Source of the DNA: Marmoricola sp. URHB0036
GTDB lineage: Bacteria; Actinomycetota; Actinomycetes; Propionibacteriales; Nocardioidaceae
Length of the DNA stretch: 64,000 nt
Direction of reading: 5' to 3'
Assembly (NCBI RefSeq): GCF_000426045.1
Contig: NZ_AUEP01000011.1
Coordinates: 1-64,000 of the forward strand
Positions 6,291-9,203 of the stretch are shown one piece after another (position 1 is the first letter of the stretch; every line of letters starts with the position of its first letter). Made by a program: the position numbers and the translations under genes. The notes beneath the pieces were generated by a model. That model was not told where the DNA came from. It saw only the letters and a list, made by a program, of their open reading frames with translations, and did not search any database.

Positions 6291-6521
6291 ATGAGCAACC
6301 CGAACGTCTACCCCGAACTGATCCTGGACTCGGCGCAGGAGAAGATCCGGGCCCTGGCGCGCAAGCAGGCCCGCGACGAGGCACGCCGCAACGCCAGAAC
6401 CGCGCGGCGCCGCACCCGCGCTCATCACCCGTTCGGACCCTTGGCACGCTGGGCACATGGACTCCGATCCCAGCTGGGTCACCACGAACATCACCGCGGA
6501 GCTGATCCGCGGCGCCCTTGA
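6291..6521 (+). CDS. Small basic hypothetical protein
   Basis: 76 residues beginning MSNPNVYPEL, six bases after the SRPBCC stop and behind a GAGGGG ribosome-binding site. Residues ~12-45 are a strongly basic helix rich in Arg, Lys and Ala (ARKQARDEARRNARTARRR). Its last 22 codons overlap the beginning of the SGNH hydrolase in another frame, so either both starts are real or one is annotated wrongly. No function is recognised. Confidence 0.45.
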   Translation: MSNPNVYPELILDSAQEKIRALARKQARDEARRNARTARRRTRAHHPFGPLARWAHGLRSQLGHHEHHRGADPRRP

Positions 6522-7629
6522 TCTCCAACCGACGGAGCAGGGGCTGCTGCCGCACCGGCTGCCGACGTGGGCTCGCAGGCAGATCCCCGACGACCAGCTG
6601 GCCGTGGCAGAGGCGCAGCCGTCCGGCGTACGCCTGGTGTTCCGTACGACGTCGACCGCGATCGAGCTCGACGTACTCCCCACGAAGCTGGCCTACGTCG
6701 GGGCACCGCCTCGGCCGGACGGGATCTACGACCTGGTCGTCGACGGGCACCTGCTCGACCGGGGGAGTGTGACCGGCGGCAACGTGCGGCTGGTCGACAT
6801 GCAGACCGGTGCGACAGAGATCCAGCCGGGCTCGCCCGGCACGCTGGCGTTCACCGACCTCACGCCGGACGCCAAGGACGTCGAGATCTGGCTGCCGCAC
6901 AACGAGGTCACCGAGCTGGTCGCGCTCCGCACCGACGCGCCGGTCGAGGCGCTGCCAGCCACGGGACGCAAGGTCTGGCTGCACCACGGCAGCTCGATCA
7001 GCCACGGGTCCGACGCCGAGAGCCCGAGCACGACGTGGCCGGCCGTCGCTGCCGCGGGTGGGGGAGTGGAGCTGGTCAACCTCGGATTCGCCGGGAGCGC
7101 CATGCTCGACCCGTTCACCGCGCGAGCGATCCGGGACACTCCTGCGGACCTGATCAGCGTCAAGCTCGGCATCAACCTCGTCAACGGCGACGTGATGCGG
7201 CTGCGGGCATTCGGTCCGGCGGTGCACGGGTTCCTCGACACCATCCGCGAGGGGCACCCGACCACGCCGCTGCTGGTGGTCTCTCCGATCCTCTGTCCCA
7301 TCCACGAGGACACGCCGGGCCCGGCGATGCCAGACTTCAGCAAGCTGAGCGAGGGCCAGCTGAACTTCCTCGCCACCGGCGACCCGACGGACCCCACGCG
7401 GCTGACGCTTCGCATGATCCGCGACCAGCTCGCGCACATGGTCGAGTCACGTGCCGCCGACGACCCGCACCTGCACTACCTCGACGGCCGCGAGCTGTAC
7501 GGCGAGGCCGACTTCGCCGAGCTGCCGCTCCCAGACCAGCTCCACCCCGATGCTGCGACGCACCGGCGGATCGGCGAGCGGTTCGCAGCCCTCGCCTTCG
7601 CCGGCGGGGGCGCGCTGGCTGTCGGCTGA
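6457..7629 (+). CDS. SGNH/GDSL-type hydrolase
   Basis: 390 residues. Residues ~30-160 form a beta-rich N-terminal domain; ~165-390 form the SGNH hydrolase. The nucleophile block is HHGSSISHG (Ser 179/180), block II is NLGFAGSA (oxyanion Gly), block III KLGINLVNGD (Asn), and the catalytic Asp-x-x-His is LPDQLHPD near 365. This layout matches carbohydrate-esterase-like SGNH proteins that remove acyl groups from sugars. There is no obvious signal peptide, so it is probably cytoplasmic. The ATG at 6457 is the first start; its ribosome-binding site is weak. Confidence 0.85.
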   Translation: MDSDPSWVTTNITAELIRGALDLQPTEQGLLPHRLPTWARRQIPDDQLAVAEAQPSGVRLVFRTTSTAIELDVLPTKLAYVGAPPRPDGIYDLVVDGHLLDRGSVTGGNVRLVDMQTGATEIQPGSPGTLAFTDLTPDAKDVEIWLPHNEVTELVALRTDAPVEALPATGRKVWLHHGSSISHGSDAESPSTTWPAVAAAGGGVELVNLGFAGSAMLDPFTARAIRDTPADLISVKLGINLVNGDVMRLRAFGPAVHGFLDTIREGHPTTPLLVVSPILCPIHEDTPGPAMPDFSKLSEGQLNFLATGDPTDPTRLTLRMIRDQLAHMVESRAADDPHLHYLDGRELYGEADFAELPLPDQLHPDAATHRRIGERFAALAFAGGGALAVG

Positions 7630-7740
7630 GCTGGGTGCGCAGCACTTCCCCTGCTCTCGAACGTGGCCAGCGCAACCGAAGGTCACGCGCCGGCGGCTGG
7701 CTCGGCCCACGTGAAGGCGCCGGTCCGGCACTGGGTCAGG

Positions 7741-7836
7741 ACGTCATACGAACTGGTCGCCATGACAGCCACTTCGTATGACGTCCCGGGCAACGTCATA
7801 CGAACTGGTCGCCATAGCAGCCGATTCGTATGACGT
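7741..7836. repeat. Two tandem copies of a 44-bp palindromic element
   Basis: ACGTCATACGAA (7741-7752) and TTCGTATGACGT (7773-7784) form a perfect 12-bp inverted repeat with a 20-base centre; the same arms recur at 7793-7804 and 7825-7836 with a 20-base centre differing at four positions. The copies repeat with a 52-bp period. They sit in the only gap above 300 bp (7630-8042), between two same-strand genes; the rest of the gap shows nothing else. They could be operators, a mobile repeat, or paired RNA hairpins. Confidence 0.85.
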
Positions 7837-8042
7837 CCCGCAACCCAAGTGCTCCCGGCAGAGCGGTACATCGACAACCCCGGGAGGCGAGCCGCATGCG
7901 GGCTGCGCGGAGGCTGACCGGTGTGCTCATCCGGACCGCGGCATCGCAGGCGCGGATGCCGAGCATCAGCACACACCGCTTCCGGGCGTACGACGGAGCA
8001 GGCACTCTCGGGGAGACCGCTCACCCGACCTCGAGGACGCGC

Positions 8043-9203
8043 ATGTTCGAGTACTTCCCCGGCAACTACATCTGGAACCTCGGGGTGGTCGCGACCCTGA
8101 ACAGCGGCGGTCTGATCGACGAGGTGGACCGGGCGTGCCGGCCGATCCGCGAGCTCGCCGCGCAGGGATCAGACGTCGGGACCAGGGAGTTCATGGCGTC
8201 GTGGAACGCGGTGGCCGACCAGCTGGAGGCACAAGCAGCCGAGGCCGAGAAGGCGGGCCACACGAGAACGGCCGGCCAGAAGTACCTCCGTGCCGCGGCG
8301 TACCTCTGCCAGGCCGAGCGGATGCAGAGCGCCAGCGACCCGAACCGGAAAGCCGTCTACCAGCACTGCCTCGACCTGATGCAGCAGTCGTTCGACCTGA
8401 TCGACCCGGCGACGACGCGGGTGGAGGTGCCCTTCGAGGGGACCACGTTGCCGGCGTACTTCACCCGGGCCGAGCGACCGGACGGCAGCCCGGCACCGAC
8501 CGTGATCATGTGGAACGGGCTGGACTCCACCAAGGAGCACATGTACACCTCGGGATGGCCGAGCGAGATGGCCGCGCGCGGGATCTCCGTGCTGCAGGTC
8601 GACACCCCCGGCAGCGGCGAGGCGTTGCGGTTCGGTGACCTGAAGTCGCGGATCGAGACCGAGGACTGGGCCGAGGCCTGTGTCGTCTACCTCGAGAGCC
8701 GCGACGACGTACGCCACGACCGGATCGGCCTGGTCGGCTGGTCGCTGGGTGGGTACTACGTGCCGCGCGCTGCCGCCTTCGAGAAGCGGCTCGCCTTCGC
8801 GGTCGCGTGGGGCGCCAACCACAACTGGGGCGAGGTGCAGAAGGCGCGCCTCGAGCGTGAGGGCGAGAACCCGGTGCCGCACTACTGGGAGCACGTGCTC
8901 TGGGTGTGGGGGTACGACGACGTCGACACCTTCATCGAGTTCGCCGAGGACATCCACCTCAACGGCGTGGTCGAGCAGATCACTTGCCCGTTCCTGATCA
9001 CCCATGGCGAGAACGACCGGCAGATCAACATCAAGTACGCGCACCAGTCCTACGACCAGGCGGTCCGCAGCCCCAAGCGAGAGCTGCGGGTGTTCACCTC
9101 CGACGAGGGCGCGACGGAACACATCGGGCTCGACCATCTGCCACACGTCGGTGCGTTCACCGCGGACTGGATCGAGGACACCCTGGGCGAGCTGGACGGC
9201 TGA
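8043..9203 (+). CDS. Alpha/beta hydrolase, FrsA/pseudooxynicotine-hydrolase-like
   Basis: 386 residues from the ATG at 8043, preceded by GAGGA five bases away; the frame is open further upstream but reads as non-coding. After an N-terminal helical cap (~1-130) comes an alpha/beta hydrolase core: oxyanion segment MWNGLDSTKEH, nucleophile elbow GWSLGGYY (Ser 234), acid HGENDRQIN (Asp) and TEHIGLDH (His). The architecture matches the DUF1100/FrsA and 2,6-dihydropseudooxynicotine hydrolase group, which cleave esters or C-C bonds. The substrate is unknown. Confidence 0.85.
   Translation: MFEYFPGNYIWNLGVVATLNSGGLIDEVDRACRPIRELAAQGSDVGTREFMASWNAVADQLEAQAAEAEKAGHTRTAGQKYLRAAAYLCQAERMQSASDPNRKAVYQHCLDLMQQSFDLIDPATTRVEVPFEGTTLPAYFTRAERPDGSPAPTVIMWNGLDSTKEHMYTSGWPSEMAARGISVLQVDTPGSGEALRFGDLKSRIETEDWAEACVVYLESRDDVRHDRIGLVGWSLGGYYVPRAAAFEKRLAFAVAWGANHNWGEVQKARLEREGENPVPHYWEHVLWVWGYDDVDTFIEFAEDIHLNGVVEQITCPFLITHGENDRQINIKYAHQSYDQAVRSPKRELRVFTSDEGATEHIGLDHLPHVGAFTADWIEDTLGELDG

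Follow-up and report, generated by a model that had tools for sequence, protein, structure and literature searches.

Two neighbouring palindromes stand between a lipase gene and a hydrolase gene in a 64,000-nucleotide stretch of the Marmoricola sp. URHB0036 genome (hereafter the window), raising the question of what such a pair is and whether it serves the adjoining hydrolase. The features concerned are:

6457..7629, + strand: GDSL-type lipase gene, upstream (context); its stop lies 112 bp before the first box
7741..7784, no strand: palindromic element copy 1; 42-bp core at 7742-7783, stem extending to 7739-7786
7784..7793, no strand: linker between both 42-bp cores; 10 bp, giving a 52-bp period
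7793..7836, no strand: palindromic element copy 2; 42-bp core at 7794-7835
8043..9203, + strand: FrsA-like/alpha-beta hydrolase gene, downstream (context); longest open frame from 7830

The initial annotation described a tandem pair of 44-bp palindromes at 7741-7836 with identical arms and 20-base centres differing at four positions, and a hydrolase about 200 bp downstream. Both descriptions are accurate: the copies occupy 7741-7784 and 7793-7836, each arm is 12 nt long, and the called start at 8043 lies 206 bp after copy 2. It also placed the pair in the largest gap of the window; by our rough gene caller the 413-bp gap (7630-8042) ranks third, after gaps of 565 and 434 bp. Copy 1 forms an 18-bp stem with one mismatch (7739-7786). 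The exact arm occurs four times in the window, and arms with up to two mismatches nine times, against a mean of 1.79 over 100 shuffles, none of which reached nine. Two mechanical open reading frames, at 7778 and 7830, begin at an ATG that the right arm of the palindrome supplies; the hydrolase's longest open frame starts within copy 2, although its called start is 8043.

BLAST of the pair against its own genome (4.83 Mb, 22 contigs) returned 44 matches. The pattern TCATACG-N{22,26}-CGTATGA matches this genome exactly 41 times (reversed control, 0), and among the matches listed the boxes are always 24 bp apart. Searching for CGTCATACG-N24-CGTATGACG with up to three box mismatches gave 57 matches (control, 0). 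The element is a 42-bp unit, CGTCATACG-N24-CGTATGACG, of fixed length, with constant end boxes and a loose centre, present in about 50 copies in this genome. The description of the pair as lying alone holds for the exact arms within the window and fails for the genome, given these 41 and 57 matches. Facing box pairs less than 60 bp apart in the loci that we fetched have exactly 24 bp between them in 129 of 131 cases; since 67 of those loci were retrieved by a fixed-length pattern, the unbiased evidence for spacing is the N{22,26} pattern in the own genome. In the linker period and in most of the centre the two window copies agree, as a local duplication of a chance palindrome without wider meaning would have it; the probability of this explanation is close to nil, as it is refuted by some 50 copies throughout the genome and by copies in many species.

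Across 49 distinct copies, information content per position reaches 1.7-2.0 bits within the box and 0.3-1.4 bits within the centre, apart from one invariant G; because these copies were chosen by their box (at most two mismatches), the contrast arises partly by construction. The centres fall into several types, with left and right halves mixed among copies. Nonetheless their inner pairing, at 0.619, is above that of randomly re-paired halves, which average 0.524 and attained the observed value in a single shuffle out of 2000. The proposed constraint on the arms is supported: one box is kept through some 50 copies here and in other species while centres vary, though part of the contrast stems from box selection. 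The other explanation offered for the conserved arms, that the copy is recent, is insufficient for so wide a family, even if tandem number does differ between two relatives, G002 and G009. Elsewhere (L074, 6316-6570), a tandem array of ~80-bp units with right box CGCATGACG ends in a canonical element.

We examined where the elements lie. Of 52 units in the own genome, 44 are intergenic (22 between convergent, 20 between same-direction and 2 between divergent genes), six lie inside called genes and two at edges; the placement comes from a home-made rough gene caller, and a few of the 52 are chance matches at three mismatches. When gaps between stop codon and box of up to 60 bp are considered, 22 of 49 in this genome are 10, 11 or 13 bp. 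Across 112 element loci, stop-side gaps outnumber start-side gaps by 118 to 27. The 67 loci of other species give 45 same-direction, 41 convergent, 15 divergent, 13 edge and 1 inside placements, so that in those species either the 3'-end bias is less marked or the caller performs less well. REP repeats are widespread, and our element shares their hallmarks, being a short palindrome with many extragenic copies, mostly behind genes.

Such placement could mean that the palindromes are hairpins at transcript 3' ends, terminators or mRNA stabilisers kept for host function, with any link to a nuclease secondary. Many elements do lie 10-13 bp behind stops and fill convergent gaps, and both window copies fold strongly: as single-stranded DNA, each beats all 200 shuffles (z -6.20 and -4.27). 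An intrinsic terminator is a GC-rich hairpin followed by a T run; no T run follows the window hairpins, and a search for hairpin plus T run found none in 7500-8200. Moreover, terminators need neither a constant 9-nt box nor a rigid 42-bp length. Nor does this explanation account for the flanking, on both sides, of one nuclease family described below, or for the patchy distribution within the genus, where 11 of 24 genomes lack the element; we consider it unlikely. A search of the window against Rfam found no known RNA family at gathering score.

Linkers between neighbouring 42-bp units (70 distinct pairs) cluster at 10, 20-23, 31-33 and 41-43 bp, and the window pair belongs to the 10-bp class. 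The phasing has a resultant length of 0.75 at periods of 10.5-11.0, a value reached by none of 5000 uniform draws; it was counted once per locus and length (n=55), which removes shared array ancestry only partly. Together with the rigid 33-bp distance between box centres, the 10.5-bp linker steps speak for a dimeric or cooperative protein that recognises the element as duplex DNA.

Comparison of G002 and G009, which are ~91-95% identical where aligned, shows different unit numbers at two sites (1 versus 2 and 3 versus 5) and elements common to both at three others. Tandem number changes, and no clean empty site was seen in these two genomes; in the single presence/absence case, 3.4 kb of other genes confound the comparison. 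Both genomes also hold palindromes of a second type, similar to CGTCATCAG/CCGATGACG but with another centre, which adjoin canonical elements (L230, L231, L234 and L235), suggesting two systems side by side.

The element is carried widely within one family. Scanning the GTDB collection (one genome per species, 84,980 species) with the exact 40-bp pattern GTCATACGAA-N20-TTCGTATGAC, which variant elements escape, gave 67 stretches, whose titles throughout name Nocardioides, Marmoricola or Mumia; all three genera are Nocardioidaceae. At up to two mismatches, 13 of 24 genomes of the window's genus hold it (0-52 copies). At up to one mismatch, 126 of 294 Nocardioidaceae genomes, the own one included, hold at least one match (0-81 copies), so the element is far from private to this genome; its absence from every other genome, which the initial annotation had named as a refuting outcome, is thereby contradicted. 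A phage origin was considered and rejected, as IMG/VR viral contigs held no exact element match and, in the search made, no relative of the nuclease gene.

MITEs are defective transposon copies, marked by target-site duplication and a parent transposon. In the REPtron, as the cited passages have it, a RAYT (TnpA-REP) is linked with REP/BIME/REPIN repeats, short dispersed palindromes often in doublets; the enzyme gene lies near or between its own repeats, and enzyme and repeat co-evolve (PMC3116915, PMC8266576, PMC3733652, PMC2817692). Our elements might then be ordinary REPs spread by a HUH transposase, their genome placement being that described for REPs in PMC3733652. This is very improbable. 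The own genome has no match to the Y1_Tnp/HUH profile (PF01797), which rang in 5 of 14 controls; no GTAG-type tag stands at the hairpin foot, the box CGTCATACG lying on both arms instead; and a different gene is flanked. CGTC-tagged REPs, as described in the parts of Di Nocera et al. 2013 cited here (PMC3733652), have an unpaired CGTC at one end, an 8-9 bp stem, a 4-5 nt loop and a CCA tail. The present element resembles them in starting with CGTC followed by AT and in lying between convergent or same-direction genes near 3' ends; CGTCAT..ATGACG is found in the listed canonical copies and in most variant boxes, though not in CGTGTGACG/CGTCCTGCC. It differs in that CGTC is paired and stands at both ends, the 9-bp boxes being separated by 24 bp, in place of the unpaired CGTC, 8-9 bp stem, 4-5 nt loop and CCA-like tail of that superfamily. 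The words Actinobacteria, Nocardioides and DUF559 are absent from the main text of that paper.

A gene that might serve the element was first seen between copies at two loci, one on contig C3 of the own genome (L045) and one in Nocardioides lacusdianchii (L100). A search of the 24 genus genomes gave seven strong matches (E 2.7e-98 to 1.9e-87), followed by a gap to 7.3e-25, and all seven strong-match genomes hold at least 14 elements. Among the genus genomes that have the element, those lacking a strong gene are G003 (10 copies), G013 (14) and G022 (24), together with three that have a single match each. As a candidate partner we also weighed a methyltransferase gene lying between two neighbouring elements of contig C18 (L016), and discarded it as not transposase-like; one other member of its cluster lies near an element (L081).

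Profile matches across eight aligned proteins divide the partner into an N-terminal DNA-binding part that is AbiEi-like and a nuclease part of DUF559 (Vsr-like) type at the C-terminus. The N-terminal part matches PDLC02228 in 8 of 8 (best 3.9e-18) and PF13338 in 3 of 8 (best 2.6e-4), and is thereby an AbiEi-like domain. The C-terminal part matches PF04480 (DUF559) in all eight when E values up to 0.1 are admitted (best 8.6e-06), some weakly; it qualifies as a DUF559 domain, with the L100 member under the curated cut-off (15.8 versus 20.6 bits). The Vsr-like reading is based on the placement of DUF559 in the PD-(D/E)XK group in the passage cited (PMC12907096). AbiEi antitoxins, of the type IV toxin-antitoxin system AbiE, are described as binding inverted repeats (PMC7319586, in part); the partner resembles them through the AbiEi profile matches of all eight members and differs in its DUF559 C-terminal part. 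It resembles Vsr-like/DUF559 endonucleases such as VsrA of Caulobacter (as presented in the cited part of PMC12907096) through the DUF559 domain of the same eight, weak in some, and differs in its extra N-terminal part and flanking palindromes. A structure model from two sequences was poor (pLDDT 41), and the best sequence match in the PDB had an E of 0.21. No relatives of the L100 C-terminal part were found on plasmids at E up to 0.01. In the own genome, the reading frame of the nuclease gene (G000:C3:3893-4707; L045, L129) is interrupted once, with the C-terminal part open in one frame, so the repeat family may be coasting here; an assembly error is a possible cause.

The gene and the repeat are closely associated. 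Elements with up to three box mismatches lie on both sides of the gene in all seven strong same-genus homologues. Canonical elements are absent from the fetched flanks of all 20 weaker genus paralogues (up to 1.5 kb, two shortened by contig ends; L150 was left out as part of the own gene). At 70 family-wide loci, namely the 30 best matches (six being genus genes again) and 40 chosen ones, some for a genome without canonical elements, CGTC-tagged 42-bp palindromes stand on both sides in 50, on one side in 14 and on neither in six. Random windows from 190 kb of G002/G009 gave 0 of 2000 with both sides and 72 with one side. An identical 9-nt box lies on both sides at 48 of the 50 both-sided loci. 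Around the paralogues, CGTC-tagged 42-bp palindromes were seen in 1 of 20 cases (L131).

We then compared presence of gene and element across the family. A family profile search of 294 Nocardioidaceae genomes gave listed scores falling from 257 to 180 bits; the 100 genomes with a match above the score gap (from a hand-copied list, leaving out G231 with a partial match at 179.5 bits) were taken as gene-positive, and genomes with at least two elements at up to one mismatch as element-positive. Both were present in 74 genomes, the gene alone in 26, the element alone in 26 and neither in 168 (Fisher p 2.7e-25, uncorrected for relatedness). Within genera, kinship ignored, p was 0.004 in g1, 2.5e-13 in g6, 0.007 in g19 and 0.0006 in the rest; for g19 significance was obtained at two or more copies (0.007), not at 5 or 10 (p 0.20). 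Genomes with the gene hold 11.4 elements on average, versus 0.9 without. One genome (G008) was scored element-negative with one copy, though it holds 24 at up to two mismatches.

Exceptions occur on both sides. Ten gene-negative genomes hold at least five copies (G003, G013, G022, G035, G056, G064, G182, G188, G210 and G221), among them G035, a single complete contig with 23 copies and no strong gene. G013, G022 and G056 are fragmented or incomplete; as the others are at least 99% complete, gene loss or another partner must be allowed for. Conversely, 26 of the 100 gene-positive genomes fall short of two canonical elements, and a variant is seen in some of the fetched genomes but not in all; at gene loci L184, L187 and L195 the CGTC-tagged palindrome is absent.

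At many loci without the canonical box, 42-bp palindromes whose boxes differ but are still complementary flank the gene, sometimes on one side only; these boxes are CGTCATGGC, CGTCATCCC, CGTCATGCG, CGTCATCCG, CGTCATTCG, CGTCATGAG, CGTCATCAC, CGTGTGACG and CGTCCTGCC. The genome-wide count of variant boxes covers CGTCATGGC alone in 24 genomes. In the six genomes whose gene carries this box, it occurs in 7, 19, 3, 18, 3 and 25 copies, and in the two genomes with three copies one or two of these adjoin the gene. The 18 others gave 3 copies in G171, one each in G002 and G125, and none in the remaining 15. By this count of one variant, CGTCATGGC, the box changes in gene-side and dispersed copies in common, as read from the sequences.

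The elements might instead be operators of a regulon, bound by the AbiEi-like protein, which would regulate itself and neighbouring genes. AbiEi proteins are described as autoregulating through inverted-repeat binding (PMC7319586, in part), the elements flank the gene and the linker phasing is duplex-like. We regard this explanation as improbable all the same: just 2 of 52 own-genome units are called between divergent genes, most lie on the stop side, and copy number spans 0 to 81. Moreover, matches to the window's flanking genes elsewhere have no adjoining element. In six loci of other genomes that match one of the two genes flanking the pair, the fetched 1.5-kb flanks hold no element at up to four box mismatches. 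The suggested link to the FrsA-like hydrolase is thereby unsupported, and a conserved operator regulating the hydrolase was rejected. Most likely the two window copies are passengers with no role for this gene.

Our preferred reading, to which we assign a probability of about 60%, takes the pair as one location of a REP-like element dispersed in Nocardioidaceae; the element's partner, an AbiEi-like/DUF559 protein encoded between copies, would bind, cut and spread the repeat. At the sequence level, this reading builds on the established 42-bp anatomy, dispersal, 3'-end bias, linker steps, gene flanking, co-occurrence and the changes of box common to gene-side and dispersed copies; we infer that the nuclease binds, cuts and copies the element and so spreads it. 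The N-terminal part would bind both CGTCATACG boxes on duplex DNA, whose centres are 33 bp apart, about three helical turns, and neighbouring units on one helix face may cooperate. The nuclease part would then nick or cut at the palindrome, and repair would copy the palindrome, or a palindrome-gene-palindrome cassette, to new sites, where copies behind stop codons would survive. When grouped by shared flanking genes, 69 strong loci form groups of 20, 13, 8, 4 and 3, four groups of 2 and 13 singletons, which fits movement and equally fits old descent with rearrangement. Like the REPtron, this arrangement places an enzyme gene between copies of a dispersed, often tandem palindrome. The differences are that the gene encodes a DUF559 nuclease bearing an AbiEi-like part and not a HUH transposase, that the repeat is one rigid 42-bp palindrome with a box at both ends, and that the phasing would point to duplex DNA, not to a single-strand hairpin.

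Palindromes also accompany other DUF559 genes. Among 396 genomes drawn from the phylum, a match at 1e-45 was found in the own genome and three others. At the six loci of those three, matching palindromes of unrelated sequence stand on both sides of four (L242, L244, L246 and L247), on one side of L243 and on neither side of L245. In one such genome (G497), a combined pattern for its two palindrome types has 16 matches at up to three mismatches (control, 3), four of which adjoin its two genes; the same pattern gave 0-2 in 11 other genomes. In a test for matching palindromes of any sequence on both sides, genus paralogues scored 6 of 20, strong loci 38 of 69 and random windows 0 of 1140. The paralogues L131, L132, L133, L135, L145 and L147 are each flanked by their own, mutually different palindromes; those of L131 are likewise 42 bp and CGTC-tagged.

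Short DUF559 genes were inspected at 13 loci, E. coli ycjD and 12 of 38 matched plasmid-collection records. C-rich hairpins stand on both sides of the matched part in four, on one side in five and on neither in four; at two of the four both-sided loci a hairpin reaches into the annotated coding region, and 49.9-kb control stretches of these four replicons hold 10, 0, 0 and 2 such hairpins. We take these hairpins as a lead, not as a test. The four loci (L266, L269, L273 and L274) belong to Sphingomonas, Sinorhizobium and Deinococcus replicons, with hairpins of CCCCTCCC..GGGAGGGG type. In one Sphingomonas replicon a short DUF559 gene lies between sufB and sufC, and that of Deinococcus lies inside the hpa cluster on the opposite strand.

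To our knowledge, DUF559 is a nuclease family of unknown role. A wider proposal, which we put forward tentatively and at somewhat less than even odds, is that DUF559 (Vsr-like) nucleases form a general second class of bacterial repeat-spreading enzyme, independent of HUH transposases. Each lineage would own and spread a palindrome recognised as duplex, several orthogonal pairs could share a genome, and the class might explain families not known to have an enzyme, such as CGTC-like repeats and the C-rich hairpin repeats of alpha-proteobacteria and Deinococcus. In the openly licensed literature, outside of which subscription papers and preprints lie, we found no description of a link between a DUF559 nuclease and palindromic repeats, and no paper on REP-associated tyrosine transposases in Actinobacteria.

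Together, the pairing of gene and repeat points to a previously unrecognised way for short repeats to spread in bacterial genomes. That a DUF559 nuclease has matching palindromes of its own suggests what the protein may do and how the repeats may spread, each directly testable, and the roughly ten box types beside homologous nucleases are natural variants whose exchange may reveal how recognition works. Should this mechanism be right, the family would supply new nucleases that bind DNA sequence-specifically, and short repeats would have a new way of spreading.
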